Shown: one piece after another, positions 5,571-48,163 of the stretch
Layout of the letters: the number at the start of each line of letters is the position of its first letter
Position numbering within the stretch: the stretch's first letter is position 1
Assembly: GCF_034555375.1 (NCBI RefSeq)
Contig: NZ_CP140706.1
Coordinates: 5,199,001 to 5,263,000, forward strand
Reading direction: 5' to 3'
Length of the DNA stretch: 64,000 bases
Origin: Pseudomonas sp. B33.4
GTDB taxonomy: Bacteria; Pseudomonadota; Gammaproteobacteria; Pseudomonadales; Pseudomonadaceae
Program-made: the position numbers and the translations under genes
The notes under the pieces: generated by a model
Databases searched by the model: none
Told to the model about the DNA's origin: nothing
What the model saw: the letters and a program-made list of their open reading frames with translations, nothing else

Positions 5571-5582
5571 CAGACAGTGCAG

Positions 5583-6062: not shown

Positions 6063-6124
6063 AGTTTCCTCAACGCAAGAAATGCCTTGCAGTAAGCCTT
6101 AGATGACGTCGCCCTTTCGTGAAT

Positions 6125-6856: not shown

Positions 6857-7020
6857 TTTATGACTCCTTAAATAGAATCCGTCGAAAAAACGGACAGGCG
6901 CCAGGGATTAGGTCCCAGTCACGCCATCGGGAAATTCTCATGTGCAAACCCGCCTCGGCCGGTGCAGATCGAGAGGCGCTGATAACAAAAACAACTCAGA
7001 CCTGCTATCGGGACATGCGA

Positions 7021-9005: not shown

Positions 9006-9160
9006 GGGCAACTCCGATAACAAGACTGGGAAAAGATGGCGGGTATCCTACCCCTTCTATCCTCCGGACGGCATGCCCGGCAACGATTTGCAGGGGTGAA
9101 ATATCTTGCCCGGCGCTTTATAGTGGCCGACCTCCGTTTCATCAAGTAGCGAAGCCCCAC

Positions 9161-14674: not shown

Positions 14675-15252
14675 ACCGGTCGGCGGCTATTTCGAACGCC
14701 TTGATGCTGACCCTGCTGCTTGGCACCAGCGAGTCATTGGCAGGTGCGCTGGGTACATTATTGATGTTCGCCACGGTGGTGAGCCTCTATGGCCTGTGCA
14801 TGTCCGCTTTACGCTCACGACTCACAGGCACAAGTGTATTGCTGGCAAGCCTGCTGCTCGCCGCGACTTTCACCAGTTGCGCAGAGCTTATGGTGCAACG
14901 CTGGTTTCTACCCTGGCAGCAAGCATTCGGCCTCTATACCAGCCTGTTCGCCTTGCAATGCGTGGTGCTGGAGCACAATGGTTTCTGGCACCAGTCGCTG
15001 ACCGCGCGCTTCAAGCTTTGCGTTATGTTCGGCAGTTTAATGCTGATGCTCGCCGGACTGCGTGAGCTCATCGGTCACGGTAGCCTGGGCCGGGGACTCG
15101 CCGAATCATGGCCAGGTATTGTTGTATTCAGCGAAGGGCTGCATTTGATCACCTTGATACCCGGCGCTTTTATTTTGTTGGCACTGCTGCTTGCGGCGCG
15201 CCAGGCGTTGATTCGCCCGAACTCAATTTCCAAGGAAACACATCGTCCATGA
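14671..15252 (+). CDS. rnfE: RnfE-like membrane subunit, one Fe-S cysteine missing
   Basis: 193 aa, shorter than E. coli RsxE (about 230), with about six hydrophobic segments. The first conserved cysteine (LGLCP in RsxE) is replaced by Ser in LGTSE (S20), while the second is kept (LQCVVLE, C97). The PGAF motif near the C-terminus is conserved. Its stop overlaps the nth start by 4 nt, so the Rnf genes and endonuclease III are probably one transcript, as in E. coli. Confidence 0.82.
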   Translation: MNRSAAISNALMLTLLLGTSESLAGALGTLLMFATVVSLYGLCMSALRSRLTGTSVLLASLLLAATFTSCAELMVQRWFLPWQQAFGLYTSLFALQCVVLEHNGFWHQSLTARFKLCVMFGSLMLMLAGLRELIGHGSLGRGLAESWPGIVVFSEGLHLITLIPGAFILLALLLAARQALIRPNSISKETHRP

Positions 15253-15887
15253 ATGCTGCAAAACGTCTGGAGATTTTTCGCCGCCTGCACGAAGACAATC
15301 CGGAGCCGAAGACCGAGCTGGCCTACTCCTCGCCGTTCGAGTTGTTGATCGCCGTGATTCTTTCAGCGCAGTCGACCGACGTCGGTGTCAACAAGGCCAC
15401 GGCGAAGCTGTTCCCGGTTGCCAATACACCGGCCGCGATACACGCCTTGGGTGTCGACGGTCTATCCGAATACATCAAGACGATCGGTCTCTACAACAGC
15501 AAGGCCAGGAACGTCATCGAAACCTGCCGTTTGCTGGTTGAACGCCATGGCAGCGAGGTTCCGCAAACCCGTGAAGAGCTCGAAGCCTTGCCCGGAGTGG
15601 GCCGCAAAACCGCTAACGTAGTGCTCAACACGGCTTTCCGGCAACTGACCATGGCTGTCGACACCCACATATTTCGGGTCAGCAACCGCACCGGCATTGC
15701 CCCGGGCAAAAACGTGGTCGAGGTAGAAAGAAAGCTGATGAAGTTTGTACCCAAAGAATTCCTGCTCGACTCTCATCACTGGCTGATTCTGCACGGCCGC
15801 TATGTGTGTCTGGCCCGCAAGCCGCGCTGCGGCAGTTGCCGCATCGAAGACTTGTGCGAATACAAAGACAAAACTTCGGACGATTGA
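15249..15887 (+). CDS. nth: Endonuclease III
   Basis: Base-excision repair DNA glycosylase/AP lyase that removes oxidised pyrimidines. The 212-aa protein has the helix-hairpin-helix LPGVGRKTANVVLN with the catalytic Lys near residue 120, the catalytic Asp in AVDTHIFRVSNR, and the C-terminal [4Fe-4S] loop with C-x6-C-x2-C-x5-C spacing (ending RIEDLC). The ATG at 15249 gives the standard N-terminus MNAAKRLEIF and overlaps the rnfE stop; the frame upstream belongs to rnfE sequence. Confidence 0.97.
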   Translation: MNAAKRLEIFRRLHEDNPEPKTELAYSSPFELLIAVILSAQSTDVGVNKATAKLFPVANTPAAIHALGVDGLSEYIKTIGLYNSKARNVIETCRLLVERHGSEVPQTREELEALPGVGRKTANVVLNTAFRQLTMAVDTHIFRVSNRTGIAPGKNVVEVERKLMKFVPKEFLLDSHHWLILHGRYVCLARKPRCGSCRIEDLCEYKDKTSDD

Positions 15888-15993: not shown

Positions 15994-16170
15994 ATGAGTA
16001 GCGACAAAGACCAACTGGATGTAGATGACGATATCGCTGCAGAAACTGATGACGCCGAACCTGTGGTCGAAGTCGCCAAGACCAATCTGAGCAAGCGCCG
16101 CACCATCGATAACCTGCTTGAGGAGCGTCGACTGCAAAAACAATTGGCCGAGTTCGATTTTGATGACTGA
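15994..16170 (+). CDS. PA3496-family small acidic protein
   Basis: A 58-aa protein starting MSSDKDQLDVDDDI, with an acidic N-terminal half and a basic helix (LSKRRTIDNLLEERRLQKQL) before an acidic end. GGGAG lies 9 nt upstream of the ATG. In P. aeruginosa a protein of this size and pattern, PA3496, follows nth (PA3495) in the same way; that family is annotated as a putative envelope-integrity protein, with no role I can confirm here. A terminator follows immediately. Confidence 0.8.
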   Translation: MSSDKDQLDVDDDIAAETDDAEPVVEVAKTNLSKRRTIDNLLEERRLQKQLAEFDFDD

Positions 16171-16177
16171 TATTTGA

Positions 16178-16204
16178 AAGCCTCCCGAACCGGAGGCTTT
16201 TTAC
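16178..16204 (+). terminator. Terminator after the PA3496-like gene
   Basis: AAGCCTCC-CGAAC-CGGAGGCTT hairpin followed by TTTT, 8 bp after the stop codon; it closes the rnf-nth region. Confidence 0.88.
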
Positions 16205-16260
16205 TTTCTGCAGCTAGCTGGATTCGATCGGCCCATGACCCTGTCAGCTACTACAGGTAT

Positions 16261-16887
16261 TCAGACCAGACCATTGCGCTGCGCCAACTCGATCAGGTCA
16301 ACCAGGGAACGTGCATTAAGCTTCAACAACAAGCGTGTCTTGTAAGTGCTCACGGTTTTGTTACTCAAAAACATGCCATCGGCGATTTCCTTGTTGGTCT
16401 TTCCCCGTGCCAACTGCTGTAACACCATCATTTCCCGACCGGACAGACGATCCACCATGTCGGCCTCACTGGCATTGCCCAGACTGGTTCGCACCGTATG
16501 CAAAGCCTGATTGGGGAAATAACTGTAGCCTGACAATACCGCCTTTATTGCACTGAGCAATTCGGTCAGGTCCTGCTGTTTGCAGACATAGCCGGCCGCC
16601 CCCGACTGCATGCAGCGCATTGAAAAATGCCCGGGAGCCTGTGAAGTCAATACCAGGACTTTAACAGGCATGGCCGTCGAAGTCAGACGCGCGATAACTT
16701 CCAGACCATCAAGCTTCGGTATTCCAATATCCAGAATAACAATATCCGGCATTTGTTCTCGAGCCAGTTGTAACGCATCCACACCGTTATCAGTCTCTGC
16801 GATGACTTCGTAGCCATGACGCTCCATCAGCATACGCACCGCAAGACGAATGACAGGATGATCATCTACGATCAGCACTTTATTCAT
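16261..16887 (-). CDS. BvgA/EvgA-like response regulator (NarL/LuxR family), orphan
   Basis: 208-aa two-domain regulator. The receiver domain (MNKVLIVDDHPV, phospho-Asp in IVILDIGIPKLDGLEV, Lys in YVCKQQDL) is followed by a LuxR-type helix-turn-helix (LSGREMMVLQQLARGKTNKEIA...STYKTRLLLKL). It reads remarkably like Bordetella BvgA along its whole length. No sensor kinase gene is adjacent. The ATG at 16887 gives the family N-terminus; the frame continues upstream to 17004 but that part shows no homology. Targets are unknown. Confidence 0.88.
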   Translation of the reverse strand: MNKVLIVDDHPVIRLAVRMLMERHGYEVIAETDNGVDALQLAREQMPDIVILDIGIPKLDGLEVIARLTSTAMPVKVLVLTSQAPGHFSMRCMQSGAAGYVCKQQDLTELLSAIKAVLSGYSYFPNQALHTVRTSLGNASEADMVDRLSGREMMVLQQLARGKTNKEIADGMFLSNKTVSTYKTRLLLKLNARSLVDLIELAQRNGLV

Positions 16888-17371
16888 GGGCAAGTCCAGT
16901 TTCGCTGTTCGAATTTTTAGAACACGCACAATATCCCAGCCACTTGCTCGATGGCATGCCAGGATAATCATGCACTTGCATCGAAAGACATGCCCTACAA
17001 TCATTGCGGATTAATCCTACAAAAAACCGCTACCCCTAGAAAAAACCCACGCCATTGCCTCCTGTGCAAGCAGCAATACTTCCCTGTTTACATTGTTACA
17101 GGCTACTTCCAGCAGCGCTGAAATCGTGACTCGCCACTGCGATCAATAACGCCCGAGCCGCGCTGAACAAACTCAAATGGCGGATCAAAGCAACACGAAT
17201 TCACATTATAAACATCAAGCAATATCAGCTAGAGAGAAACACACCAGCTTAGCCAAAATATAAACACCTGAAACAAGATATTTATACCTGACGATTTGTT
17301 TTTGCTATAAAAACAAACATCTCGGAAAACAACTACCAAACAACAACTCAACACCCACCAACTCGATAACT
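16888..17371. other. AT-rich intergenic region between the BvgA-like regulator and a membrane-protein gene
   Basis: 484 bp with no convincing gene. The composition falls well below the neighbouring GC level from about 17,090 on, with many A-runs. A small inverted repeat (GTTTTTGCTATAAAAAC) lies at 17297-17313. The region must hold the divergent promoters, but I cannot name a specific operator. Confidence 0.5.
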
Positions 17372-18118
17372 ATGAGAAAGACCAGACAGAAGAGCCAAAG
17401 CATGTTGAAAATAAAAAACAAAATCACCAGCCCAATGACCGTCATTGCCATATTTGCCGCTATCTCGGAAACATCAGCCGCGATCTCGCTACCGTTTCTC
17501 GACAATAAGGACCGGGAAATATACGTGTGGTTTTTGATCAGCTTTCCGTTTTACTTGTTATTTCTTTTCTTTATCACACTTAACTTCAACTACCGCTCCC
17601 TCTACTCACCCTCCGACTTCGGTAAAGACAAAAACTTTCTAAAAGTAATCGATAACAACGATCGCGAAAACAAACGACACACCTCGTCCCAGGAACCTGC
17701 CACGCAGGGTGTATTTGGACTATCAAGATGTATCGTGCCAAGTGAGTCAAACACTGCCGATCGGCAAGATTCGTGCAAGATCCACAACGCACCTGACCCA
17801 CCGACGGACATCAACAAAAAGCCGAACCTGATTGTTCAGCACAACATTCAGTTACCTGCATGGATCAGTAACCTGCACCTCATTGATGCGAGGGATGTCG
17901 ATGAGGCGAGGGAGTTAGCCACGATTCTGGAAAACATCCGAACCCTCGACAGAAAAACTGCCCGGGTAGTGGTCTTCCTTTCCAATCACGTGTCGGATGT
18001 TTTACTGACGAAAAACGCACTGCTGCAAAGCAAGCAGGTAAAAAAGGGCTCGAGCAAGACGCTCTGTATCGTCTATAACCTGTGTTCGCAAGCAGTGACG
18101 CTGATGGCACGTACATGA
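17372..18118 (+). CDS. Hypothetical membrane protein, AT-rich gene
   Basis: 248-aa protein of unknown function. Two hydrophobic stretches lie at about residues 22-42 and 50-70 (IYVWFLISFPFYLLFLFF). A low-complexity linker and a soluble C-terminal domain (about 150-248) rich in Asp/Arg and hydrophobics follow. The first 300 bp are clearly more AT-rich than the surrounding genes. The start is uncertain: ATG codons at 17372, 17402 and 17435 are possible and none has a strong ribosome binding site. The TM segment ending in LNFNYRSLYSPSDF is a type I have seen in various small bacterial membrane proteins. It is convergent with argG. Confidence 0.6.
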   Translation: MRKTRQKSQSMLKIKNKITSPMTVIAIFAAISETSAAISLPFLDNKDREIYVWFLISFPFYLLFLFFITLNFNYRSLYSPSDFGKDKNFLKVIDNNDRENKRHTSSQEPATQGVFGLSRCIVPSESNTADRQDSCKIHNAPDPPTDINKKPNLIVQHNIQLPAWISNLHLIDARDVDEARELATILENIRTLDRKTARVVVFLSNHVSDVLLTKNALLQSKQVKKGSSKTLCIVYNLCSQAVTLMART

Positions 18119-35218: not shown

Positions 35219-36754
35219 ATGTCCACCTCTACCTTGCGTACGCCCCCTCTCTCCGAGATCTACGACCTCGCCGTTATTGGCGGCGGGATCAATGGCGTGG
35301 GGATCGCAGCGGATGCCGCCGGTCGCGGGCTTTCGGTGTTCCTTTGCGAAAAGGACGATCTGGCCAGCCACACCTCGTCAGCCAGCAGCAAGCTGATCCA
35401 CGGCGGTCTGCGCTACCTCGAACATTACGAATTCCGTCTGGTGCGTGAAGCGCTGGCCGAGCGCGAAGTGCTGCTGGCCAAAGCGCCGCACATCGTCAAA
35501 CCGATGCGCTTTGTGCTGCCGCACCGTCCGCACCTGCGCCCTGCGTGGATGATTCGTGCGGGCCTGTTCCTGTATGACAACCTCGGCAAGCGCGAAAAAC
35601 TGCCAGGTTCGAAAAGCCTGAAGTTCGGCGCCGACAGCGCGCTGAAAAGCGAAATCAAGAAAGGCTTCGAATATTCCGATTGCTGGGTCGACGATGCCCG
35701 CCTCGTGGTACTCAACGCCATGGCCGCCCGCGAAAAAGGCGCCCACGTGCATACTCAGACCCGTTGCGTCAGCGCCCGTCGTGCCAAAGGCTTGTGGCAC
35801 CTGAATCTGGAGCGCGCCGACGGCAGCCTGTTTTCGATCACCGCCAAAGCGCTGGTGAACGCCGCCGGCCCATGGGTTGCCAAGTTCATCCGTGACGACC
35901 TGAAGATGGAATCGCCGTACGGCATCCGCCTGATTCAGGGCAGCCACATCATCGTGCCGAAACTGTACGAAGGTGATCACGCGCACATTCTGCAAAACGA
36001 AGATCAGCGCATCGTCTTCACCATTCCGTATCTGAACCACTTCACCCTGATCGGTACGACCGACCGCGAATACACCGGCGATCCGGCGAAAGTGGCGATT
36101 ACTGACGGTGAAACCGATTACCTGTTGAAAGTGGTCAACGCCCACTTCAAGAAACAGGTGAGCCGCGACGACATCCAGCACAGCTACTCGGGCGTGCGCC
36201 CATTGTGCAACGACGAATCCGACAACCCGTCGGCGGTCACCCGCGATTACACCCTGGCCTTGTCCGGCAACACGGAAGAAGCGCCACTGCTGTCGGTGTT
36301 CGGCGGCAAGCTGACCACCTACCGCAAACTCGCCGAGTCGGCGATGGCGCAGTTGCTGCCATTCTTCACCCAGATGCGCCCGAGCTGGACGGCCACCGCC
36401 ACCCTGCCCGGCGGCGAAGACATGACCACCCCGCAAGCCTTGAGCGCGCTGATCCGCGACAAGTTCGACTTCGTGCCGACCGAGATCGCCCGTCGCTGGT
36501 CCACCACTTACGGCAGCCGCACCTGGCGCATGCTTGAAGGGGTGGAAACCCTGGCCGACATGGGCGAACACCTGGGTGGCGGGCTTTACACCCGCGAAGT
36601 TGATTACCTGTGCAGCGAAGAGTGGGCGACCACGGCGCATGACATTCTCTGGCGCCGCAGCAAACTCGGTTTGTTCACCACCCCGGCGGAGCAGGAAAAA
36701 CTGGCGGCTTATCTGGGCAAGGTTGAACAGAACCGCAAGACTGAAGCGGCCTGA
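35219..36754 (+). CDS. glpD: Aerobic glycerol-3-phosphate dehydrogenase
   Basis: FAD flavoprotein at the inner membrane that oxidises glycerol 3-phosphate to DHAP and feeds electrons to quinone. The 511-aa protein has the FAD motif DLAVIGGGINGVGIA (near residue 14), KLIHGGLRYLE, and IGTTDREYTGD, as in E. coli GlpD. A CGAGG-type site precedes the ATG. Strong terminator downstream. Confidence 0.98.
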   Translation: MSTSTLRTPPLSEIYDLAVIGGGINGVGIAADAAGRGLSVFLCEKDDLASHTSSASSKLIHGGLRYLEHYEFRLVREALAEREVLLAKAPHIVKPMRFVLPHRPHLRPAWMIRAGLFLYDNLGKREKLPGSKSLKFGADSALKSEIKKGFEYSDCWVDDARLVVLNAMAAREKGAHVHTQTRCVSARRAKGLWHLNLERADGSLFSITAKALVNAAGPWVAKFIRDDLKMESPYGIRLIQGSHIIVPKLYEGDHAHILQNEDQRIVFTIPYLNHFTLIGTTDREYTGDPAKVAITDGETDYLLKVVNAHFKKQVSRDDIQHSYSGVRPLCNDESDNPSAVTRDYTLALSGNTEEAPLLSVFGGKLTTYRKLAESAMAQLLPFFTQMRPSWTATATLPGGEDMTTPQALSALIRDKFDFVPTEIARRWSTTYGSRTWRMLEGVETLADMGEHLGGGLYTREVDYLCSEEWATTAHDILWRRSKLGLFTTPAEQEKLAAYLGKVEQNRKTEAA

Positions 36755-37009: not shown

Positions 37010-37912
37010 TCACTGCGCCAAATGCAACAACAGAAAATCAATGAACGCCCGCGACTTGTGGGGCAGGTGCGGAGTATTGGGAAACACCACATTGATCGAC
37101 TGCGAAGGCAGCGAATACTCCGGCAGCAAGCGCACCAAACGCCCGGCGGCGATGTCTTCTGCGACCACCCACGCCGGCAAAACCGATACCCCCAGCGACG
37201 ACAACGTCATCGAACGAATCGCCGTCGAAGAATTCGATTCAAAGTGGCTGGTGCCGCCGACCTCGGCACCCTGCCCTTGCCCAAGGCGCAATGTCCACTG
37301 GGTCGGCGCCTGTAAATTGCTGTTGGCAATCCACGGCACATTGTTCAGATCCTGCGGTTCACGCACCGGATGTCGGGCGAGAAATTGCTCGGTGGCCACC
37401 AGCACGATTTCATAATCGGCCAACTTGCGACTCTTGAATGCCGAATCCGCCAAGTTGCCCAGGCGAATCACCAGATCAAGCTTTTCCGCGACAAGATCGT
37501 TCAATGAAGAGTTAAAGTTGTAGCACAAACGAATTTCCGGATAACGCTCGGAGAACAACGGAATCAACGGCAGAATATACTTCTCACCGTACTCACTGGT
37601 CGAACTAATCCGTAACTTTCCGGACACCCGATTATTACCTTTGAGGACATTATCAAAGGCATTGTCGATGTCTGCGACAATGCCCTTGAACTCTTCATAA
37701 AACTCCTGACCTATTTCGGTCAGCGAAATATTGCGGGTATTGCGGATCAACAAGGTTGCCGACAAAACTTCTTCCAGCGCCTTGACATGCAGGCTGGCCA
37801 TGGCTTTGCTGATACTCAGATAATTCGCAGCCTTGGTGTAAGAACCAAAATCCACCACCGCAAGGAAGGTCTGAACCCGATTAAGATGAGAGTGCATGGC
37901 GCTATGGCTCAC
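37010..37912 (-). CDS. LysR-family transcriptional regulator of the adjacent cluster
   Basis: 300-aa LysR regulator: N-terminal winged helix (FLAVVDFGSYTKAANYLSIS...SLHVKALEEVL) and effector-binding domain of the CrgA/AaeR subgroup (GKLRISSTSEYGEKYILP). Divergent from the MFS gene with 90 bp between the starts, the classic layout for control of the neighbouring operon. Start could be at 37912 or at the Met at 37897. The effector is unknown; an aromatic acid or amino acid would fit the neighbours. Confidence 0.85.
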   Translation of the reverse strand: MSHSAMHSHLNRVQTFLAVVDFGSYTKAANYLSISKAMASLHVKALEEVLSATLLIRNTRNISLTEIGQEFYEEFKGIVADIDNAFDNVLKGNNRVSGKLRISSTSEYGEKYILPLIPLFSERYPEIRLCYNFNSSLNDLVAEKLDLVIRLGNLADSAFKSRKLADYEIVLVATEQFLARHPVREPQDLNNVPWIANSNLQAPTQWTLRLGQGQGAEVGGTSHFESNSSTAIRSMTLSSLGVSVLPAWVVAEDIAAGRLVRLLPEYSLPSQSINVVFPNTPHLPHKSRAFIDFLLLHLAQ

Positions 37913-38002
37913 TGTTAAATCCTGTCAAACATTGTTTTAAGCATAGTCGTATCGACACTTCAAGTCCATCGCCCCTATGCTGCGCGGCAAAGGGGATTCA
38001 AC

Positions 38003-39370
38003 ATGAACTATCGCTATAAGATCGCGCTGATCTTTCTGATCGGCTTCTTTATTGACTGTATAAACATATTTATGTCGGCGGTGGCATTGCCGAGTATATC
38101 GGCAACTTTGCAAGTCAGTACTTCATCGGTGGCGTGGGTCGCCAACGCTTATATTCTTGGCCTGACCCTGATTATTCCGGTGAGCACCTGGCTGGCCGGG
38201 CGCTTCGGCAGCCGCGATATTCTTACCGCATCGATGCTGGTATTCAGCGGTTCAGTGTGGATGTGCGGCATGGCCGACAGTTTCCACGAACTGGTGATCT
38301 GGCGTTTCGTTCAGGGCATCGGTGGCGGGCTGCTGATTCCGGTCGGTCAGGCGCTGACCTTCAACCTGTTTCAGGGTGAACAACGCGCCAAAATCTCCAC
38401 ATTGGTGATGGCCGTGGCGCTGATTGCTCCGGCCATTTCACCGACGGTCGGCGGCATCATTGTCGACAGCAGCTCCTGGCGCTGGGTGTTCTACAGCAAC
38501 ATCCCGTTTTCGTTGATCGCGGCCGGGCTGTCGTGGTTGTGGATCAAGGAAAGCAAACCAGCGCACCTGCCACGCCCGGACATCAAAGGTTTGTTGCTGG
38601 TCAGTGCCGCACTCGCCAGCCTGCTGATGGGCATGTCGTTGTACGGCGGCGACTACCCGGCGCTGGCCGCGTTGAGCTGTGTCGCGGCAGGCTTGCTGTT
38701 CATCGTGCTGTACCTGCGGCACTACCGCCGCTGCAGCAACGCGATCATCGAATTGAGCCTGCTCAAAAGCAAAAAGCTCAGCACCTCGATCTTCATCTAT
38801 TACGCGATTCCCGGCGTGTTCACCGGGGTCAACCTGATGAGCATTTTCTTCCTGCAGAACACCCTGCACTTCAGCGCCCGGCTGACCGGGATGTTCATGA
38901 TCCTCTACGCCATCGGCGCGTTCATTGCGATGACGATTTGTGGTCGGGTCTACAACCGCGTCGGCGCGAAACGCCTGTTCACCCTCGGCATGCTCCTGCA
39001 CAGCGCCGGTATCGCCACGCTGATGCTGGTCAATGACCCGGCGGACCTGTGGGTGATCGTCATCGCTTACAGCCTGATGGGCATTGGTGGCGGCATCGGC
39101 GCCAACACCGCGCAGACCACCTCGCTGATGGACTTTGCCGGCGGCGATACGCACAAGGCCAGCGTGATCTGGAACATCAATCGGCAGATGTCGTTCAGCC
39201 TCGGTGCCGCGTTGTTTCTGATGATCTTCAATGTGCTGCTCAAGCAGTTCGATACCACACAGGCTTACCACGCGACCTTCGCGATTGCCGCTCTGGTCGG
39301 GCTGTTCCCGCTGTTTCAGATGAGTCAATTGAACCCTCCAAAGGAATGCCATGAACAACAACCTGGTTGA
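38003..39370 (+). CDS. MFS transporter, DHA2 (EmrB/QacA-like) drug/metabolite exporter
   Basis: 455-aa inner-membrane protein with about 14 hydrophobic segments. Family motifs include LPSISATLQVSTSSVAWVAN at the first loop, the GRFGSRDIL loop, and motif C (APAISPTVGGIIV) typical of antiporters. It is the first gene of the operon and its last 20 nt overlap the NTF2-like gene, so it probably exports a product or substrate of the pathway. The LysR gene lies divergently upstream. Confidence 0.9.
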   Translation: MNYRYKIALIFLIGFFIDCINIFMSAVALPSISATLQVSTSSVAWVANAYILGLTLIIPVSTWLAGRFGSRDILTASMLVFSGSVWMCGMADSFHELVIWRFVQGIGGGLLIPVGQALTFNLFQGEQRAKISTLVMAVALIAPAISPTVGGIIVDSSSWRWVFYSNIPFSLIAAGLSWLWIKESKPAHLPRPDIKGLLLVSAALASLLMGMSLYGGDYPALAALSCVAAGLLFIVLYLRHYRRCSNAIIELSLLKSKKLSTSIFIYYAIPGVFTGVNLMSIFFLQNTLHFSARLTGMFMILYAIGAFIAMTICGRVYNRVGAKRLFTLGMLLHSAGIATLMLVNDPADLWVIVIAYSLMGIGGGIGANTAQTTSLMDFAGGDTHKASVIWNINRQMSFSLGAALFLMIFNVLLKQFDTTQAYHATFAIAALVGLFPLFQMSQLNPPKECHEQQPG

Positions 39371-39767
39371 ACGAGCGCAACACAGTATTCACCACGTGCA
39401 CGAACTGATTCACCGCGTCTTCACCGACGCCGACGGTGCCGGCGCAAACGCCATCGCGCCGCTGATGGAGGTGTTCGCCGAGCACTTCAGCATGGTCACC
39501 ACCTCGGCCGCCGTGGTCGGTCGGGCACAAGTCGAGCAACTGTTCAACGGCGCCGTCGGTGCCCGCAAAGGTCTGGAGATTCTGATCAGCGACCTGCACA
39601 CGGTCTGGCACGAAGGTTCGACCGTGGCCCTGCGCTACAAGGAAACCCATCGCCTGAACCACAGTGAAACCTCACGTATTTCGCTGGCGATCCTGCGTGT
39701 CCAGCACCACGACGTTCAGTGGTTGTACCTGCACGAAACACCGATCAACCAGGAAAAACCTGCATGA
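39351..39767 (+). CDS. NTF2-like (SnoaL/DUF4440-type) protein
   Basis: 138-aa protein of the cone-shaped NTF2-like fold: APLMEVFAEHFSMVTTSAAVVGRAQVEQLF followed by alternating strands (LEILISDLHTVWHEGSTVALRYKET). Such folds serve as small enzymes or binding proteins, and the Rieske beta subunit has the same fold, but this one is a separate protein. It starts 20 nt inside the MFS gene and its stop overlaps the reductase start. The role in the pathway is unknown. Confidence 0.7.
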   Translation: MNNNLVERAQHSIHHVHELIHRVFTDADGAGANAIAPLMEVFAEHFSMVTTSAAVVGRAQVEQLFNGAVGARKGLEILISDLHTVWHEGSTVALRYKETHRLNHSETSRISLAILRVQHHDVQWLYLHETPINQEKPA

Positions 39768-40696
39768 AGTACACCGTCACCCACTGCCGGATGCTCTCGG
39801 CATCGATCAAGGAAGTCACCGTCAGCGGTCCCGCCTCCCTGTCGGACATGACTCATGCCGGTGCGCACTTCAAATGGTTGATTCCGGGCCTGGACGACTG
39901 TCGGCATTACTCGACGGTGCACGTGGACGAGATTGCGGATGGCCGGTTCACCTTCGCCATCCGCCTCTCGCCAGACTCCATCAGTAGCCAGTACATCCGC
40001 ACCTTGGCGGTCAATGACAGCGTGGAACTTGAAGGTCCGTTGAACACCTTCAACTACCCGCTCGACGCTGACAGCGGGCGTGATATCGCGATTGCCGGCG
40101 GCATCGGTATCACGCCGCTGACCGGCATCCTGCGCCACCTGAGCGTGTTGAACCGCCCGGCGCAGTTGCATTATTTCGCCAAGAGCGCCGACGACGCGGT
40201 CTATGCCCGATACCTGCAAGACCAGTTGCAGGAACGCATGCAACTGCACCTCTCCGGCAGTCGCCCGGCGATCAGCGCAGTGCTCGCCGATCTGCGCGCC
40301 GATGACCGTCTGTATGTCTGCGGCCCGGCGGCAATGCTCGGTGAAGTGCTCAGCCACGCCGAAAACGCTGGCCTGGCCCGTGAGCAGATCCATCTGGAAG
40401 TGTTCAACGTTGCCCGCGATGACGCCGCACAAGGCTGTGTCATCGAGGCGGCAGACTCCGGCGTCAGCGTCAATGTCGGCCCGCAACAGTCGTTGCTCGA
40501 AGCCCTGGAAGCGGCCGGACTCGATCCGCTCTATGACTGCCGTCGTGGTGAATGCGGCGTCTGTGCGCTGGATGTACTGGAAGGCGAAGTCGATCACCGC
40601 GACTTCATCATGAGCGAACAGGAAGCGGCCTGCAGTGCACGAATCTACCCCTGCGTCTCGCGCGCAAAAAGCCCGCGCCTGAAACTGGCGATCTGA
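39764..40696 (+). CDS. Phthalate-dioxygenase-reductase-type oxidoreductase (FMN, NAD, [2Fe-2S])
   Basis: 310-aa electron-supply protein for a Rieske oxygenase. Order of domains: flavin-binding barrel (about 1-100), NAD-binding domain (IAGGIGITPLTGIL near 112; YVCGPAAML near 195) and C-terminal plant-type ferredoxin (CRRGECGVCALDV with the last Cys in YPCVSRA). This order is that of phthalate dioxygenase reductase and VanB. ATG at 39764 overlaps the previous stop (ATGA). The Rieske alpha gene follows after 14 nt, which makes it the cognate partner. Confidence 0.92.
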   Translation: MKYTVTHCRMLSASIKEVTVSGPASLSDMTHAGAHFKWLIPGLDDCRHYSTVHVDEIADGRFTFAIRLSPDSISSQYIRTLAVNDSVELEGPLNTFNYPLDADSGRDIAIAGGIGITPLTGILRHLSVLNRPAQLHYFAKSADDAVYARYLQDQLQERMQLHLSGSRPAISAVLADLRADDRLYVCGPAAMLGEVLSHAENAGLAREQIHLEVFNVARDDAAQGCVIEAADSGVSVNVGPQQSLLEALEAAGLDPLYDCRRGECGVCALDVLEGEVDHRDFIMSEQEAACSARIYPCVSRAKSPRLKLAI

Positions 40697-40710
40697 GAGA
40701 GGACACCCCG

Positions 40711-42009
40711 TTGGACAACTATTTCAATGGCAGGGAAGTGCATAAATCTCTGTTCCTTGATCAGGCGCTTTTCGAACAGGAACAGCAGCGCGTGTTCGCC
40801 GCGAGCTGGTGTTACCTGGGTCACGACAGCCTGATCCCCGAAACCGGTGACTACTTCACCACCACCCTCGCACAACAGCCACTGGCGATGGTTCGGCAGA
40901 AGAACGGCACCATCGTCGTGCTGCACAACCGCTGCCCGCACAAAGGTGTGAAAGTCCTCGCCGAAGCGCGCGGCAATGTCGGCCGCTTCATGCGTTGCCC
41001 GTATCACGCCTGGACGTTCAAGACTGACGGCGAGTTGCTGAGCATTCCGGTGAAAAAGGAGTACGACGACTGCGACCTCAGCAGTTGTTCCGCGCACAAG
41101 GGCATGCGCCCGGTGAACGCGGTGCACAACTATCGCGGCTTCGTGTTTGTCCGTTTGACGGAAGACGGCATCGGCTTCGAGGCGTTTTTCGGTGAGTCGC
41201 TGTCGACGCTCGACAACATGGTCATGCGCTCGCCGCTGGGTCAGTTGAAAGTGATCGGCCAGCCGCTGCTGCACCGTCATCGCTGCAACTGGAAAATGGT
41301 CGTCGACAACCAGACCGACACCTGCCATCCGATGATCGCCCACGAATCTTCGGCCGGCGAAGCGATACGCCTGTGGCAGGAATCCGGCGATCAGGGCAAG
41401 CCACCGATGGCCGTCGAACTGTTCTCGCCGTTCATGGCCTCCTACGAGTTTTTCGCCGGCATGGGCATTCGGGTCTGGCCCAATGGCCACGGGCACACCG
41501 GGGTCAGCAATTCGATCCACAAGGCCTACACCGACATCCCCGGTTACTGGGAATTGATGGTCGAAAACTACGGTGAAGAGCAGGCCCGGGCGATCCTCGA
41601 CGACACCCGCCACAACACCGTGTATTTCCCCAACCTGATGGTCAAGGGGCCGATCCAGACCTTGCGCGTGATCAAACCGGTCAGCGCCCGCGAGACCATC
41701 GTCGAGTCGTGGATCTTCGAACTGCAAGGCGCGCCCGTGCAGTTGCTGGAAAGAACCGTGCAGTACAACAACCTGATCAACTCGCCCTGCTCGATGGTCG
41801 CCCACGACGACGTGGAAATGTACGAACGGGCCATGGAAGGCCTGGGCAGCGACGCCAACGAATGGGTCAACGTCGCCCGCCTGTTCAGCCCGAACGAATC
41901 CTACGCGCAGAGCCAAGTGGTGTCCGGCACCAGCGAAATGGCCATGCGTAATTTCTATAACAGTTGGCAGCACTTGATGCGGGACGACCATGCAACACGA
42001 TCAATCTAA
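40711..42009 (+). CDS. Rieske aromatic-ring-hydroxylating dioxygenase, alpha subunit
   Basis: 432-aa catalytic subunit. The Rieske [2Fe-2S] centre is C75-P-H77 and C96-x2-H99 (NRCPHKGVKVL, MRCPYHAW). The mononuclear iron site is in DNQTDTCHPMIAHES, with a late Asp expected in the C-terminal part. The only sensible start is TTG at 40711, with GAGAGAGG 8 nt upstream; the frame upstream lies inside the reductase gene. The end overlaps the beta gene by 20 nt. The substrate cannot be read from the sequence; neighbours point to an indole- or aryl-acetate or its amide. Confidence 0.92.
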   Translation: MDNYFNGREVHKSLFLDQALFEQEQQRVFAASWCYLGHDSLIPETGDYFTTTLAQQPLAMVRQKNGTIVVLHNRCPHKGVKVLAEARGNVGRFMRCPYHAWTFKTDGELLSIPVKKEYDDCDLSSCSAHKGMRPVNAVHNYRGFVFVRLTEDGIGFEAFFGESLSTLDNMVMRSPLGQLKVIGQPLLHRHRCNWKMVVDNQTDTCHPMIAHESSAGEAIRLWQESGDQGKPPMAVELFSPFMASYEFFAGMGIRVWPNGHGHTGVSNSIHKAYTDIPGYWELMVENYGEEQARAILDDTRHNTVYFPNLMVKGPIQTLRVIKPVSARETIVESWIFELQGAPVQLLERTVQYNNLINSPCSMVAHDDVEMYERAMEGLGSDANEWVNVARLFSPNESYAQSQVVSGTSEMAMRNFYNSWQHLMRDDHATRSI

Positions 42010-42475
42010 TCACCACGCCATCGAGCAACTGATCGAGACCGAACTGCACTTGCTCGACCAGCAGGATTTCGCCGCCTGGCAGCAATTGCTCAGCGATGAC
42101 TACCACTACTGGATCCCGATGACCCGCGAACAGGTCAGCCCGTTGCACGAATCATCGCTGGTGTATGAGGACCGCTTTCTGACCACGCTGCGGATCAATC
42201 GGCTGGCCAACGCGCGCAACTTTTCCCAGCAGCCGAAGAGTCGCAGCCTGCACATCGCCCAGCGCCCGCGCATCACCCTCGACGCAGCCTCGTTCAGCGC
42301 TTTCGCCAGCTCCAACATGCTTTATTGCGAAGCGCGCGGCGACAGCGAATGGCACTACCCGGTGACCGTCGAACATCAACTGATCAATATCGATGGCACC
42401 TGGAAGATTCACGGCAAGAAAATCCTGTTGCTCAACCCCGCACGCGCCCTTGAAAGCCTGCAGCTCATTATCTGA
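41990..42475 (+). CDS. Rieske dioxygenase, beta subunit
   Basis: 161-aa small subunit with the NTF2-like fold of the BphE/BenB family: IEQLIETELHLLDQQDFAAWQQLLSDDYHYWIP and VYEDRFLTTLRINRL are characteristic. It pairs with the preceding alpha subunit to form the usual alpha3beta3 oxygenase and overlaps its gene by 20 nt. Confidence 0.9.
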   Translation: MQHDQSNHHAIEQLIETELHLLDQQDFAAWQQLLSDDYHYWIPMTREQVSPLHESSLVYEDRFLTTLRINRLANARNFSQQPKSRSLHIAQRPRITLDAASFSAFASSNMLYCEARGDSEWHYPVTVEHQLINIDGTWKIHGKKILLLNPARALESLQLII

Positions 42476-42494
42476 TCGATCGAGAAGTCCCCCT

Positions 42495-44204
42495 GTGAAA
42501 CCTATTTCCCATGATGTCAGTCAGGCGTCCGCGTGCCTGTCTTTTCCCTACGTCGATCTGCTGTATGACTATGGCCAGTTCCTGCGCAGTGCCGATGAAG
42601 CCATCGGTTACCTGCCAGCGGAAACTGCCGAGAAACACATCGGCATCGTCGGCGCCGGCCTCAGCGGGCTGGTCGCCGCCTACGAATTGCTGCGCGCCGG
42701 GGCACGTCGCGTCACCCTGTTTGAAGCCGAACCTGCGCATGTCGGCGGGCGTCTGCTGACCCAGTGTTTTGATGAGGAACAGCCACAATTCATCGCGGAA
42801 ATGGGCGCCATGCGCTTTCCGCCGAGTGAGGTCGGGCTGTTTCACTACCTTAATCGTTTCGGCATCCAGACCACCGAAGCGTTTCCCGACCCAGGCGTCG
42901 TCGACACCGAAATCCACTACCGTGGCGAGGCTCATCACTGGGCGGCTATGCAGCCGCCGCCGGCGCTGTTCAGCACCGTGCACCAGGGCTGGATCGCCTT
43001 TCTCAGCGAAGGCGTCACCCTCGATGACGGCACGTGCCTGGCGCCACCGCTGTTGATCACCGAATTGCTCAAGCAGCACAATTACTGCGAAGTGCAGCCC
43101 GAGTGGCAACGCTATCTGGACTGCTTCGGCGACAGCTCCTTTTACTCGGCGATGGTGCGCATCTTCACCGGCAAAAACCCGCCGGGCGGCAAGCCGTGGC
43201 GCAAGCCTGAAGACTTCCATCTGTTCGGCTCGCTGGGCATTGGCTCCGGCGGTTTCCAGTCGGTGTACCGTGCCTCGTTCACCGAGATCCTGCGCCTGGT
43301 GGTGAATGCGCTGGAGGTCAATCAGCGTCTGGTGCCCAACGGTATTTCCTCGCTGGCCGAGCGCATTGCCGACACCTCCTTCAACGGCATTCAGGTGCGC
43401 GACATGATCTGTCGCACGCGCATTGAATCGATCAACAAAGGGCCCACAGGCGAAATCCTGCTGGCCGGCAGCAACGGCGAAACCTATGCCTGTGATCGCG
43501 TCATCACCACTACCACGACCCGCGCCCTGCAAGTGAACCTCAAGCTCACGCAGAACCAGGCCTTCGTTAATCGCGACGTGGCGCGGGCGATCAATGAAAC
43601 GCACATGGTCGGCTCATCCAAGCTGTTTATCCTGACCAAGGACAAGTTCTGGCTCAAACATGGCCTGGCGCACAACATCCAGACCGACACCCTGGTCAAG
43701 GGCGTGTATTGCCTCGACTACGCACCGCACGATCCGGACTCCTGGGGCGTGGTGCTGATCAGTTACACCTGGGAAGACGACTCGCACAAGATGGTTTCGA
43801 TGACCGACAAGGTGCAACGCTGCCTGCGTCTGGTCGATGAATTGGCGATGAGCGCGCCGGAATTTGCCAGCCACCTGCTCCCGCTCGACGGCGACTACCA
43901 GCGCTACGTTCTGGAATACGACTGGCTGACCGACAAGCACGCACTCGGCGCTTTCAAGCTGAATTTCCCCGGCGACGACATTTACTCCGAGCGCCTGTTC
44001 TACCAGTTCCGCACCGCCCTCGATCCGAAACAGGACACCGGTTTGTACCTCGCCGGTTGCGGCGCCTCGTTCACCGGCGGCTGGGCCGAAGGCGCGATTC
44101 AAACTGCGCTCAATGGCGCATGTGCGGTGATCAGCAGTCTGGGCGGCGATTTGATTGCCGGTAACCCGCTCGACGACTTGCACTCGCAGTACCGCTACTG
44201 CTGA
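42495..44204 (+). CDS. iaaM: Tryptophan 2-monooxygenase (IaaM-like FAD amine oxidase)
   Basis: 569-aa flavoprotein that converts tryptophan, O2 to indole-3-acetamide, CO2 and water. It reads like P. savastanoi IaaM throughout: FAD motif IGIVGAGLSGLVAA (residues 49-62), GGRLL, MGAMRFPPSEVGLFHYL where R107 corresponds to substrate-binding R98, PDPGVVDTE, the conserved Lys in GSSKLFIL, and DWLTDKHALGAFKLNFPGDD. GTG at 42495 is the start, with GAGAAG 7 nt upstream. A phenylalanine 2-monooxygenase activity is an alternative that sequence alone does not exclude. It follows the Rieske beta gene after 19 nt and precedes iaaH. Confidence 0.88.
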   Translation: MKPISHDVSQASACLSFPYVDLLYDYGQFLRSADEAIGYLPAETAEKHIGIVGAGLSGLVAAYELLRAGARRVTLFEAEPAHVGGRLLTQCFDEEQPQFIAEMGAMRFPPSEVGLFHYLNRFGIQTTEAFPDPGVVDTEIHYRGEAHHWAAMQPPPALFSTVHQGWIAFLSEGVTLDDGTCLAPPLLITELLKQHNYCEVQPEWQRYLDCFGDSSFYSAMVRIFTGKNPPGGKPWRKPEDFHLFGSLGIGSGGFQSVYRASFTEILRLVVNALEVNQRLVPNGISSLAERIADTSFNGIQVRDMICRTRIESINKGPTGEILLAGSNGETYACDRVITTTTTRALQVNLKLTQNQAFVNRDVARAINETHMVGSSKLFILTKDKFWLKHGLAHNIQTDTLVKGVYCLDYAPHDPDSWGVVLISYTWEDDSHKMVSMTDKVQRCLRLVDELAMSAPEFASHLLPLDGDYQRYVLEYDWLTDKHALGAFKLNFPGDDIYSERLFYQFRTALDPKQDTGLYLAGCGASFTGGWAEGAIQTALNGACAVISSLGGDLIAGNPLDDLHSQYRYC

Positions 44205-44234
44205 CCCTGTCCCTTTCCACGCCGAGAATCATCC

Positions 44235-45554
44235 ATGTACAGCCAGCTTTCCATTGAACAGCTCGTCAACGGATTTCGCAGTGGTCAACACTGCCCGGAC
44301 ACCTGGCAGCACGCCCTGCGCGAGCGTCATGTGCACCTGCAACACCTGAACAGTTTCATCACCTTCGACCCGTCAGCGTTCAAGGCGAATGCTGCCGAAC
44401 GCGACAGCGCACTGTATGGCCTGCCGGTGTCATTCAAGGACAACATCAACGTCAGCGGCATGCCGACCACCGCCGGCACCCCCGGGCTGGCCGACTATGT
44501 GCCGCCGGCCGATGCCGGCATCGTTCAGCGTTTCCGCCAATTGGGCGCGCAGATCGTCGGCAAGAACAACATGCATGAACTGTCGTTCGGCGTGACCTCG
44601 GCCAACCATGCTCATGGCGCCGTGCTCAACCCCGCCAACGAGCGCCACAGTGCCGGCGGCAGCAGCGGCGGTTGTGCCGCGGCTGTCGCTGCCGGGCTGG
44701 TGGCGTGCGCGGTCGGCACCGACACCGGCGGCTCGGTGCGTATCCCGGCGGCGTTCTGCGGGATTGTCGGGTTTCGCCCCACCACCGGCGTTTATCCGGT
44801 CGACGGCATCGTCCCGGTGTCGCAAACCAAAGACACCCCGGGCCTGCTGACCCGCACGGTGGAAGATTGCCAGTTCGTTCACACGCAACTGAGCGGCAGC
44901 CTGCATCAGGCAGAAACGCGGGCGTTGCGTATCGGCATTCCCGAGCGTTTCCTCTGGACCGAGCTCGCCGACAATGTGCAGCGTGACTGCCGCGCGGCCA
45001 TCGATACCCTCGCCGATCGCGGTGCGATCATCGTGCCGGTCGACGACGCCATGATTGGCGAGATCAACGAGCGCATCCAGTTTCCGCTGCCGATCTACGA
45101 GTTCTTTATCGACTTTCCACGGTTCCTGATGAAAGCCGGACGCGGTGAACAGTTTTTCGACATCCTCGCGCAGATTCGCGATCCGGCGATCAAGAAAATC
45201 CTCACCGCCCAACTGGAAAGCCCAGCGATTTCCTACACCGACTACGTGCAGGCACTGATGAGCAAGCTGTGTCTGGAGAAGGAGTACCGCGCCCTCTTCA
45301 GCCGCCATCAACTGGATCTGCTGGCTTACCCGACCGTCACGTGCAGCGCACCGCTGCTGAGCGCCTGCGCGGACGAGAGCAACTTTGAAACGTTCGTGCG
45401 CAATACCGACCCGGCGAGCAATCTGGCGGCGCCGAGTATCAGCGTTCCGGTGGCAGCGGCGGATGAGTTGCCAGTGGGTTTGTCGTTCGATGCGTTGCCG
45501 GGGCAGGACGACTTTCTATTGGCCAACGTGCGGCGTCTGCTGGCTATCCGCTGA
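44235..45554 (+). CDS. iaaH: Indole-3-acetamide hydrolase (IaaH-like amidase)
   Basis: 439-aa amidase-signature enzyme that would release indole-3-acetate and ammonia from the IaaM product. Catalytic triad residues are K68 (SFKDN), S143 (AGGSSGG) and S167 ([12 protein letters not shown]). Long stretches match P. savastanoi IaaH, such as [14 protein letters not shown] and [14 protein letters not shown]. The gene starts 31 nt after iaaM and is the last one before a REP element. Together with iaaM it makes a complete indole-3-acetamide route. Confidence 0.88.
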
Positions 45555-45575
45555 CCCGCCATCCTGTACAAAACC

Positions 45576-45667
45576 CTGTGGGAGCGGGCTTGCCCGCGAA
45601 GAGGCCATCAGCATCAACATCACTGTTGACTGAACAACCGCTATCGCGGGCAAGCCCGCTCCCACAG
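45576..45667. repeat. REP/REPIN-type inverted pair
   Basis: Arms CTGTGGGAGCGGGCTTGCCC and complement; a slightly different subtype from the others in the window. It separates iaaH from the permease gene. Confidence 0.85.
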
Positions 45668-45715
45668 GAACCGTGCAACCACAGCCATATAACAATTCAA
45701 ATTGCGGGCCTTGCC

Positions 45716-46975
45716 ATGCGTTCCACCTCAATATCCTCCGTTCCCGCTGTCGAGCGTGCACCATCGATCCTCGGTGGCGCCATGATCATCGGCGGCACCA
45801 TCGTCGGTGCCGGTATGTTTTCGCTGCCGGTGATCATGTCCGGCCTGTGGTTCTACGGCTCGGTCGCCGTGCTGCTGTTTGCCTGGTTCTGCACCTTGCA
45901 CTCAGGCCTGATGATTCTTGAAGCCAACCTCAACTACCGCGAAGGCGCGAGTTTCTCCACGATCACCGGCGATCTGCTCGGGCGTGGCTGGAACCGTTTG
46001 AACGGCTTGAGCATCGTGTTTGTCCTCTACACCCTGACCTACGCCTACATTTCAGCCAGCGGTTCGGTGATTCATCACACCGCGCAATCGCTTGGGTTGG
46101 CGTTGTCATCGCGCGCCGGTGGCCTGTGTTTCACCCTGCTGGTGGCGTTCATTGTCTGGCTCAGCACCACGGCGGTGAGCCGCATGACCACGCTGGTGTT
46201 CGGGGCAAAAATCCTCGCGTTCTTCCTGACCTTCGGCGGTTTGCTCGGCCATGTGCAAAGCACCACGCTGCTCAATCTGAACAACGGCGACAGCCATTAC
46301 TGGCCCTATCTGCTGGTGACCCTGCCCTTCTGCCTGACCTCGTTCGGTTTTCACGGCAACGTACCGAGCCTGATGAAGCATTACGGCAAGGATCCGCAAC
46401 GGATTCGCGCCTGCCTGGTCGGCGGCACCCTGATCGCGCTGGCGCTGTATCTGGTGTGGATGCTGTGCAGCATGGGCAACATTCCCCGCGACGCGTTCAA
46501 GGACATTGCTCAGCGCGGCGGCAACATCGATGTCTTGATCAGCGCGCTGGGTTCACGGCTCAACAGCGCCAACGTAGATCTGCTGCTGACGTTTTTCTCC
46601 AACTTCGCCGTGGCCTGTTCATTTCTCGGGGTAACTCTGGGTTTGTTTGATTACCTGGCCGATGTGCTGAAGTTCGACGACAGCCCCGTCGGTCGTCTGC
46701 AGACGGCGGCCGTGACGTTCGGGCCGCCGATGCTCGGTGGTTTTCTGTGGCCGGAAGGTTTTCTGCATGCCATCGGTTTCGCCGGGTTGGCGGCGACATT
46801 GTGGGCGGTGATCACCCCGGCGCTGTTGGCGCGGGCTTCGCGCAAGCGCTTTGGCAGCCCGCGCTATCGCGTGTGGGGCGGCACGCCGATGATCGTGCTG
46901 GTGCTGTTTTTCGGCGTGCTCTGCGCGGTCGCTCATCTGCTGTTCGTGTTTGATTACCTGCCGGTGTGGCGCTGA
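45716..46975 (+). CDS. Aromatic amino-acid permease (HAAAP family, Mtr/TyrP/TnaB-like)
   Basis: 419-aa proton symporter with about 11 transmembrane helices. The N-terminal [19 protein letters not shown] is the family signature, and [15 protein letters not shown] is also conserved. It likely imports tryptophan, tyrosine or phenylalanine, which suits an IaaM substrate supply. A REP element lies between it and iaaH, so it could be a separate transcription unit. ATG at 45716; a longer frame upstream reads through the REP element and is rejected. Confidence 0.9.
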
Positions 46976-46984
46976 GGCGTCGCG

Positions 46985-46998
46985 TTCGGTTTTCCGAA
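46985..46998. promoter_or_regulatory. AauR-type operator 1
   Basis: TTCGGTTTTCCGAA is an exact match to the AauR motif TTCGG-N4-CCGAA I recall from P. putida aat studies. It lies inside a larger hairpin just after the permease stop and about 110 bp upstream of the sigma-54 promoter, the usual place for an enhancer-binding protein. Confidence 0.7.
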
Positions 46999-47121: not shown

Positions 47122-47236
47122 CTACACTCTCTCGACGAATGCCTGTTGCGCCAACACTTCAGGAGCCGTCAGGCATTCGAAGCACAAAAGGGCCGACGAA
47201 CTGGCTCCATAAAAAAAACAATTCGAGGAAAATTTG

Positions 47237-48163
47237 ATGCGCATCGTTCCCCATATCCTGGGCGCAGCCATTGCGGCCGCTCTGATCAGCACGCCAGTTT
47301 TCGCCGCCGAACTCACCGGCACCCTGAAGAAAATCAACGATTCGGGCACCATCACGCTCGCTCACCGCGACAGCTCCATTCCGTTTTCCTACATCGCGGA
47401 TGCTTCCGGCAAACCAGTGGGCTACTCCCACGACATTCAAGTGGCCATCGTTGAAGCCCTGAAAAAAGACCTGAACAAGCCGGATCTGCAGGTCAAGTAC
47501 AACCTCGTCACCTCGCAAACCCGAATCCCGCTGATCCAGAACGGCACCGCGGATATCGAGTGCGGCTCCACCACCAACAACGCCGAACGCGCTCAGCAAG
47601 TCGACTTCACCGTCAACATCTTCGAAATCGGCACCCGTCTGCTGGTCAAGAAAGACAAGGATGGCAAGCCGTCCTACGCTGACTTTGCCGACCTGAAAGG
47701 CAAAAACGTCGTGACCACCGCCGGCACCACGTCAGAGCGCATCATCAAAGCGATGAACGCCGACAAGCAGATGGGCATGAACATCATCTCCGCCAAAGAC
47801 CACGGCGAATCCTTCAACATGCTGGAAAGCGGTCGCGCCGTTGCCTTCATGATGGACGACGCTCTGCTGGCCGGCGAAGAAGCCAAGGCGAAGAAGCCGA
47901 ACGACTGGATCATCACCGGAACTCCACAGTCCTTCGAAGCCTATGCGTGCATGGTTCGTAAAGACGACCCGGCCTTCAAGAAGGCCGTCGATGACGCCAT
48001 CGTTGCGCTGTACAAGTCTGGCGAGATCAACAAGATCTACAGCAAGTGGTTCGAGAGCCCGATCCCGCCAAAAGGTCTGAACCTGAACTTCCCGATGAGC
48101 GACAAGGTGAAAGATCTGATCGCCAACCCGAGCGACAAGCCGGCGCCTGACGTAAAAATCTGA
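47237..48163 (+). CDS. aatJ: Glutamate/aspartate ABC transporter, periplasmic binding protein
   Basis: 308-aa exported solute-binding protein (signal peptide about residues 1-23, ending VFAA). The pattern GYSHDIQVAIVEAL, IECGSTTNNAER, and FMMDDALLAG matches the GltI/AatJ family for acidic amino acids. GAGG lies 9 nt before the ATG. Gene order aatJQMP-aauSR is that of P. putida. Two hairpins separate it from aatQ, which would leave more aatJ mRNA than permease mRNA. Confidence 0.95.
   Translation: MRIVPHILGAAIAAALISTPVFAAELTGTLKKINDSGTITLAHRDSSIPFSYIADASGKPVGYSHDIQVAIVEALKKDLNKPDLQVKYNLVTSQTRIPLIQNGTADIECGSTTNNAERAQQVDFTVNIFEIGTRLLVKKDKDGKPSYADFADLKGKNVVTTAGTTSERIIKAMNADKQMGMNIISAKDHGESFNMLESGRAVAFMMDDALLAGEEAKAKKPNDWIITGTPQSFEAYACMVRKDDPAFKKAVDDAIVALYKSGEINKIYSKWFESPIPPKGLNLNFPMSDKVKDLIANPSDKPAPDVKI

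Follow-up and report, generated by a model that had tools for sequence, protein, structure and literature searches.

How does the locus described here relate to the bacterial systems known for the auxin indole-3-acetate (IAA)? Auxin synthesis of the Pseudomonas savastanoi type, found also in Paraburkholderia, Rhizobium and Agrobacterium, relies on iaaM and a usually adjoining iaaH. The iac operon of Pseudomonas putida 1290, which works by IacA/IacE, unites a reductase gene and one of amidase type with a Rieske pair. The iad operon of Variovorax, Achromobacter, Bradyrhizobium and Ruegeria, with its MarR-type regulator IadR, has the gene order reductase, Rieske alpha, Rieske beta, and its oxygenase IadDE oxidises IAA together with the reductase IadC (PMC10374108). 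The locus in question lies in a 64,000-nucleotide stretch (the window, whose positions are used throughout) of the 6.6-Mb single-contig genome of Pseudomonas sp. B33.4, flanked by glpD (35219-36754) on one side and a gltI-like gene (47234-48163) on the other. It consists of nine genes, all with intact reading frames. One, for a LysR regulator, diverges from the other eight, which share one direction and encode a major facilitator superfamily (MFS) exporter, an NTF2-like protein, a reductase, Rieske alpha and beta subunits, an IaaM-like and an IaaH-like enzyme and the permease Mtr. Given the starts adopted here, neighbours among the first seven of these eight overlap or are separated by no more than 30 nt, and frames, spacing and domains agree with the head-to-tail run, divergent regulator and trailing permease that a preliminary description of this DNA had reported. 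We read the locus, at a probability of roughly 0.55, as a specialised-metabolite operon by which oxidised IAA would be made from tryptophan and exported, and of which non-producers would keep LysR, MFS and NTF2 as an export or tolerance module.

The oxygenase and the indole-3-acetamide genes

The Rieske alpha subunit (40711-42009, + strand, as are all genes of the locus except LysR; a TTG start is proposed, 14 nt behind the reductase) scores 486 and 479 bits with the IadD structures 9o71 and 7yls, which are nearly identical in sequence in these alignments, against 128 bits for the next family, biphenyl dioxygenase. The former structure has been described as IadDE (PMC12633357). In a maximum-likelihood tree, the operon alphas and seven proteins of unknown context form one clade (19 rows, support 100/100), which is nested within the IadD family (35 rows, 100/100). 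These scores and this placement rule out an iac-type reading of the alpha, so that iad takes the place of iac, with which the preliminary description had compared the locus; PMC9613470 likewise gives iadDE as of low similarity to iacCD. The absence of IacA, which that description had pointed out, holds for the operon, whose + strand leaves no space for a further gene of this kind, IacA not having been searched for genome-wide.

Nine residues of IadD that form the IAA pocket are named in PMC10374108, and eight of them (N210, H216, H221, F251, H311, K322, R329 and Y362) are retained in the operon alpha, where the positions carry over by a gapless offset of 8 from the IadD alignment, K322 becoming K314 and R329 becoming R321. 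The ninth, L211, is replaced by Q203. This exchange was considered as a mark of an altered substrate and discarded, as glutamine occupies the position in all 126 aligned alphas, including that of Ruegeria pomeroyi, a strain for which IAA degradation has been reported (PMC9613470). On these grounds the oxygenase is an IadD-family enzyme, whose substrate may have drifted. The alpha is 56% identical to a Sulfitobacter iad alpha. Its partners are the beta subunit (41990-42475; PF00866), which is IadE-like and overlaps the alpha gene by 20 nt, and an IadC-like PDR-type reductase with FAD, NAD and plant-type 2Fe-2S domains (39764-40696; PF00111, PF00970), overlapping the NTF2-like gene by 4 nt.

With iad the locus shares the reductase-alpha-beta order and an IadD-family alpha with the IAA pocket; unlike iad, it lacks IadF to IadJ and an IAA uptake system, has LysR in place of IadR, and adds IaaM, IaaH, Mtr, the MFS exporter and the NTF2-like protein. 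Named plasmids provide four loci of iad type for comparison. Behind the three oxygenase genes, all four have AMP ligase and short-chain dehydrogenase (SDR) genes, and three of the four also thiolase and cyclase genes; one of these systems, on a Paracoccus saliphilus plasmid (L111), has two cyclase-family, IadI-like copies (3368-4159 and 15033-15815). The window retains the oxygenase genes, and IaaM, IaaH and Mtr replace everything behind them. Nothing in the window matches IadF to IadI (the names G to I being assigned by gene order), and for IadJ there is only a generic 28% SDR match, outside the operon; the searches for IadG, IadI and IadJ were made in the window, not genome-wide. A search of the whole host genome with IadH gives zero matches at 1e-10, although two out of three further iad loci contain proteins 51-60% identical to this query. 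IadF finds only generic ligases, the best of 29-32% identity.

This bears on the two outcomes offered in the preliminary description, a degradation route and an exported, oxidised auxin-like product. In the former, the cell would grow on tryptophan, which would reach central metabolism by way of IAA and its oxidised form. The gene order and alpha family are indeed those of iad degraders, and a tryptophan permease lies within the cassette, but the operon is devoid of IadF to IadJ, the genome offers neither a match to IadH nor a clear orthologue of IadF, an exporter-type MFS gene stands in the same gene run, and the Xenorhabdus versions (see below) include an O-methyltransferase. We therefore regard catabolic entry as very doubtful; because the downstream iad genes are missing, the exported product is the better fit.

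The remaining enzymes follow the indole-3-acetamide logic that had been proposed at the outset. The IaaM-like protein (42495-44204; GTG start proposed, 19 nt behind beta) matches the tryptophan 2-monooxygenase 4iv9 with 723 bits over residues 15-566 of the 567-residue query, other amino-acid oxidases scoring 189 bits or less. Invariant in the IaaM alignment are R105, K374, Y422 and W475, equivalent to R98, K365, Y413 and W466 of 4iv9, which we take to be active-site residues. The IaaH-like protein (44235-45554, 30 nt behind IaaM) belongs to the amidase signature family (PF01425, 301 bits), and its best NCBIfam model is the indoleacetamide hydrolase PRK07488. The permease (45716-46975, 161 nt behind IaaH), described earlier as one for aromatic amino acids, passes the curated cut-off for the tryptophan permease Mtr (NF007789, 697 bits against 515). 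Since it does so, and in line with the 4iv9 match, tryptophan is the likely substrate among the two formerly suggested, and phenylalanine less so. An inverted repeat read from the sequence between IaaH and Mtr (about 45578-45672) resembles a Pseudomonas REP pair.

The IaaM of this operon is 53-59% identical to the types outside such operons. Unlike it, the IaaM loci of Paraburkholderia, P. savastanoi-type strains, Rhizobium and Agrobacterium are without a Rieske alpha in the surrounding DNA examined, of which some stretches are short, and the alpha was not found on three of the five Pantoea plasmids that carry IaaM.

The six-gene cassette and the LysR-MFS-NTF2 trio

The genes from reductase to Mtr (39768-46984) form a cassette that is present or absent as one piece. 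In a sample of 398 Pseudomonas genomes, the alpha and IaaM of the operon's clade occur in the same 10, our own included; two further genomes have an IaaM of a 57% type, without the alpha. The earlier proposal of one unit, joining the Rieske genes to IaaM and IaaH, is borne out by this joint presence or absence in relatives, and the possibility also raised that its two halves are inherited separately is not. What does separate is the trio of LysR, MFS and NTF2, which stands alone in 33 of these 398 genomes and, in Xenorhabdus, in 10 of 30; the latter genus has 2 full operons, and Pantoea 2 full and zero trio-only loci in 61 genomes. The 55 Pseudomonas genomes with an NTF2-like gene comprise, besides the 10 full and 33 trio-only ones, 4 without the trio and 8 with matches of low identity (34-39%), which were left out of the locus comparison. 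A cassette without an NTF2 gene alongside was found in none of the 10 cassette genomes of the sample. In all 10, NTF2 adjoins the alpha; MFS and LysR were checked in three of them (the window, L181 and L182) and in 16 other full loci. LysR is present at all 19 full loci examined, with a split frame in L038, and at the 33 Pseudomonas and 10 Xenorhabdus trio-only loci. The absence of the alpha from trio-only genomes is genome-wide for Pseudomonas and refers to up to about 9 kb of context for most Xenorhabdus.

The glpD-gltI site is also that of 12 trio-only loci. In each of these the match to the window starts again at 46981-46985, only a few bases past the stop of the window's Mtr gene and some 5-73 nt past the NTF2 stop of the locus itself. 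Besides the flank, the gaps of these loci contain only 11-21-nt matches to the cassette, none of them a convincing remnant. In trees of the MFS protein, full and trio-only loci are interspersed, and the well-supported branches force at least six changes; the second tree covers 14 of the 19 full and 28 of the 43 trio-only loci, L010 and L181 are identical in MFS, and L227, a record of L109, is counted once. In one clade, full and trio-only loci have average identities of 97% in LysR, 97% in MFS and 93% in NTF2, and it is the cassette by which they differ. An NTF2 allele tied to the presence of the cassette was considered and dropped, as the identity between full and trio-only loci is 64% in one clade but 93% in the other. 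At the locus L178 (G104, 8449-10192), an MFS 94% identical to that of the window adjoins an NTF2 of only 64%, which hints at recombination between both genes.

Three sets of trio-only loci, 19 of the 33, were subjected to a simple Nei-Gojobori count of the ratio of nonsynonymous to synonymous changes (dN/dS). The median is 0.09 for LysR, 0.11 for MFS and 0.15 for NTF2 in nine close loci, and 0.14-0.16 in five more. The trio is thus mostly kept under selection where the cassette is absent; for NTF2 in the third, distant set, to which we return below, this is less clear.

As to its members, the MFS protein (38003-39370; PF07690, 188 bits) is DHA2/EmrB-like, scoring 215 bits with TIGR00711 at a cut-off of 230, and its family suggests that it works in the export direction. 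The NTF2-like protein (39351-39767), whose gene overlaps that of MFS by 20 nt, passes no Pfam cut-off, the best hit being SnoaL_2 at E 0.005; its assignment in the preliminary description stands by the predicted fold, modelled with confidence (pLDDT 92.9). One solved relative, PA1314 of Pseudomonas aeruginosa (1tp6), is clearly the closest, by fold and by a distant sequence likeness. Its function is unknown, and a fold comparison aimed at function yielded, besides it, only general NTF2, dehydratase, isomerase and CaMKII-hub folds. LysR (37010-37912, - strand; PF03466 and PF00126) is separated from MFS by a divergent intergenic region (37913-38002) which, in an alignment of 11 loci, is partly conserved between full and trio-only loci. 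It scores 191 bits with YafC, 134 with GcvA and 131 with AaeR, all well under the cut-offs.

Could the trio be a general efflux system for aromatic acids, older than the cassette, which would have docked alongside it for convenience, so that trio-only genomes would have no relation to the cassette's product? Trio-only loci outnumber full ones, by 33 to 10 in Pseudomonas and 10 to 2 in Xenorhabdus, and reach into more divergent Pseudomonas, with MFS identities of 56-70% to the window. AaeR, one of the below-threshold matches of LysR, belongs to an aromatic-acid pump that is induced by IAA in Dickeya (PMC13395407). Against this, trio and cassette occur together in four genera, their nine proteins diverging in parallel over 14 operons, some of them near-copies, and no cassette of the Pseudomonas sample lacks its adjoining NTF2. 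We hold such a module to be possible, if somewhat unlikely. A trio that occurs by itself, combined with a cassette that was never seen without it, is the pattern expected of a tolerance module; the same would be seen with a general efflux unit that the cassette had joined.

A promoter scan returned 3 sites where shuffling predicts 3.3, and terminator-like sites number 20 against 10.0, mostly within genes; neither was used. Away from the locus, window positions 16001-18000 have a GC content of 0.477, against about 0.59 for the window, and a GC skew of -0.158, possibly marking foreign DNA. Elsewhere on the host contig (G000:C1), acyl-ligase matches at 3839304-3866452, 4576029-4585283 and 2126457-2127938 lie within frames of about 4300-6000 codons, which look like nonribosomal peptide synthetase genes.

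Full operons in other genera

A scan with an IaaM alignment, covering at least 80 named loci and not meant as a census, extends the operon beyond Pseudomonas. Among the loci listed, the same nine-gene order is present at nine loci of Pseudomonas and two of Photorhabdus, in Pantoea wallisii and on two plasmids of Pantoea. Outside Pseudomonas, the proteins are about 45 to 72% identical to those of the window, NTF2 only about 30-37%. Xenorhabdus stockiae and X. szentirmaii have the same order with two variations, an inserted class II O-methyltransferase and the lack of Mtr at that place. The recurrence elsewhere that the preliminary description had suggested looking for is thus real, and its presence in Photorhabdus, Xenorhabdus and Pantoea implies that the gene order is not due to chance. 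An IaaH-like gene is present at 18 of the 19 full loci examined, the exception being X. stockiae (L016, 9995-13076), where neither IaaH nor Mtr follows IaaM. Across 14 full operons, near-copies included, the pairwise distances of the nine proteins run parallel, with Spearman coefficients of 0.85-0.98 (0.61-0.96 in Pseudomonas alone).

In both Xenorhabdus operons the O-methyltransferase lies between NTF2 and the reductase (L016, 6130-7101; L017, 6006-6974). That of L017 is nearest to Photorhabdus Plu4890-4895, which are presumably anthraquinone methyltransferases. Such an enzyme suggests that a hydroxyl group is modified in a tailoring step, as is usual for specialised metabolites. Several frames appear broken: in Photorhabdus noenieputensis (L013), whose operon is otherwise complete, a frame break or stop divides the alpha (8185-9478), which is intact in the near relative L014, while in Pantoea wallisii (L038) the frames of LysR (126-1012, 129 + 153 aa) and IaaM (5516-7250, 246 + 369 aa) look interrupted, in either case by damage to the gene or by a sequencing error.

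Ten full operons (L009, L010, L011, L014, L016, L017, L038, L109, L110 and L181) are located outside the glpD-gltI site. Given this, and their presence on large Pantoea plasmids, the unit has moved. The alpha is found at E 1e-60 in 4 of 369 genomes of a class sample, our own included, and at E 1e-100 in 2 of 295 of the Xenorhabdus family sample, both already found. Carriage by phages was considered and rejected, as the Rieske pair has no match in 50,697 phage records.

Proposed pathway and its meaning

What would the operon make? From gene content, protein families and pocket conservation we infer a pathway in which Mtr would import tryptophan, IaaM would very probably convert it to indole-3-acetamide, and IaaH would release IAA. 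The IadCDE-type reductase and oxygenase, which likely act on IAA or its amide, would then oxidise the pyrrole ring of IAA to a product at the level of C10H9NO3, either 2-oxindole-3-acetate (oxIAA) or an epoxide-like isomer. This product would probably be exported by the DHA2-type pump, under regulation of the unit by LysR, and the NTF2-like protein might handle it by binding, hydration or isomerisation, which is a guess. That the cassette serves a single pathway we hold with little doubt. From co-inheritance and purifying selection we infer that the trio kept by many relatives which lost the cassette, or never had it, could serve export or tolerance; for tolerance proper we see even odds.

Several points weigh against this interpretation. 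The score of the IaaH-like protein, 439.5 bits, falls under the curated indoleacetamide hydrolase cut-off of 532. Identity to the Sulfitobacter proteins is only about 36% both between the reductase and IadC and between the beta subunit and IadE. The product of IadCDE is itself disputed, being oxIAA according to PMC10374108 and another C10H9NO3 isomer, not oxIAA, according to the preprint PMC12633357. The trio could be the older efflux unit considered above, and its five distant stand-alone loci are under weaker purifying selection, with median dN/dS values of 0.13 for LysR, 0.29 for MFS and 0.47 for NTF2. Further, the stem of the operon alphas is long, at 0.9 changes per column, so that the substrate has possibly shifted. 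X. stockiae has oxygenase and IaaM but no IaaH orthologue in its genome, where the best amidase shows 34% identity along most of its length; in that lineage the amide may be what the oxygenase acts on. These last observations also speak for a rival reading, in which the substrate is not IAA but indole-3-acetamide, or another compound derived from tryptophan, and the end product an oxidised amide. The pocket residues, K314 and R321 among them, are however those of the IAA-binding IadD, and the other 18 of 19 full loci examined do have an IaaH-like gene; we find such a substrate in place of IAA unlikely.

Finally, free auxin has been detected in P. chlororaphis O6, which has iaaMH, and not in strain 30-84, which has it too, in both cases without obvious mutations; the authors consider small sequence differences or expression as the cause (PMC3390384). 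The NTF2-like protein of the full operon L010 is 95.5% identical to a P. chlororaphis protein, and those strains may carry the operon. If O6 does, oxidation there is incomplete, which weighs against our interpretation as well, whereas the 30-84 result would fit complete oxidation. The same data could point to a rheostat, in which IAA is the true signal and the oxygenase of the same operon caps its level by diverting the surplus to oxIAA, described as biologically inactive (PMC10374108). Synthesis and destruction within one co-inherited cassette, however, make the oxidised compound the likelier end product, and the exporter trio is kept also where this IAA synthesis is absent. Such a rheostat therefore appears quite improbable to us, and we retain oxidised, exported IAA as the preferred product.

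Each step by itself is known. Their union within a single operon that brings its own exporter is apparently new, and so is a trio that can stand apart from the rest: no description of either was found in the open-licence PMC literature, in a search that was partly loose. The operon might still correspond to a known Pantoea antibiotic cluster (PNP-1 to 5, PNP-3 in particular), although the main texts of PMC11350110 and PMC7744662, the two compared here, contain none of the words dioxygenase, tryptophan, amidase, monooxygenase and Rieske. As close relatives differ at the site mainly by the presence of a precise cassette, the question is directly testable.

Auxin production in Pseudomonas has been deduced from iaaMH, for instance where these genes define a biosynthetic gene cluster (PMC8719888, PMC3390384). 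If the operon indeed secretes an oxidised indole-acetate, genomes scored as auxin producers by iaaMH alone would often make something else; with IAA oxidised at once and exported, such strains would release another compound, which would affect roots, microbes or insects in other ways. Tentatively, and at less than even odds, we suggest that an oxidised indole-acetate, secreted and derived from tryptophan via auxin, acts as a signal or antimetabolite toward neighbours or hosts such as plants and insects, with LysR, MFS and NTF2 as an immunity trio whose range in Pseudomonas and Xenorhabdus goes well past that of the producers. The stand-alone trio would also offer a way to tell which organisms encounter the compound.

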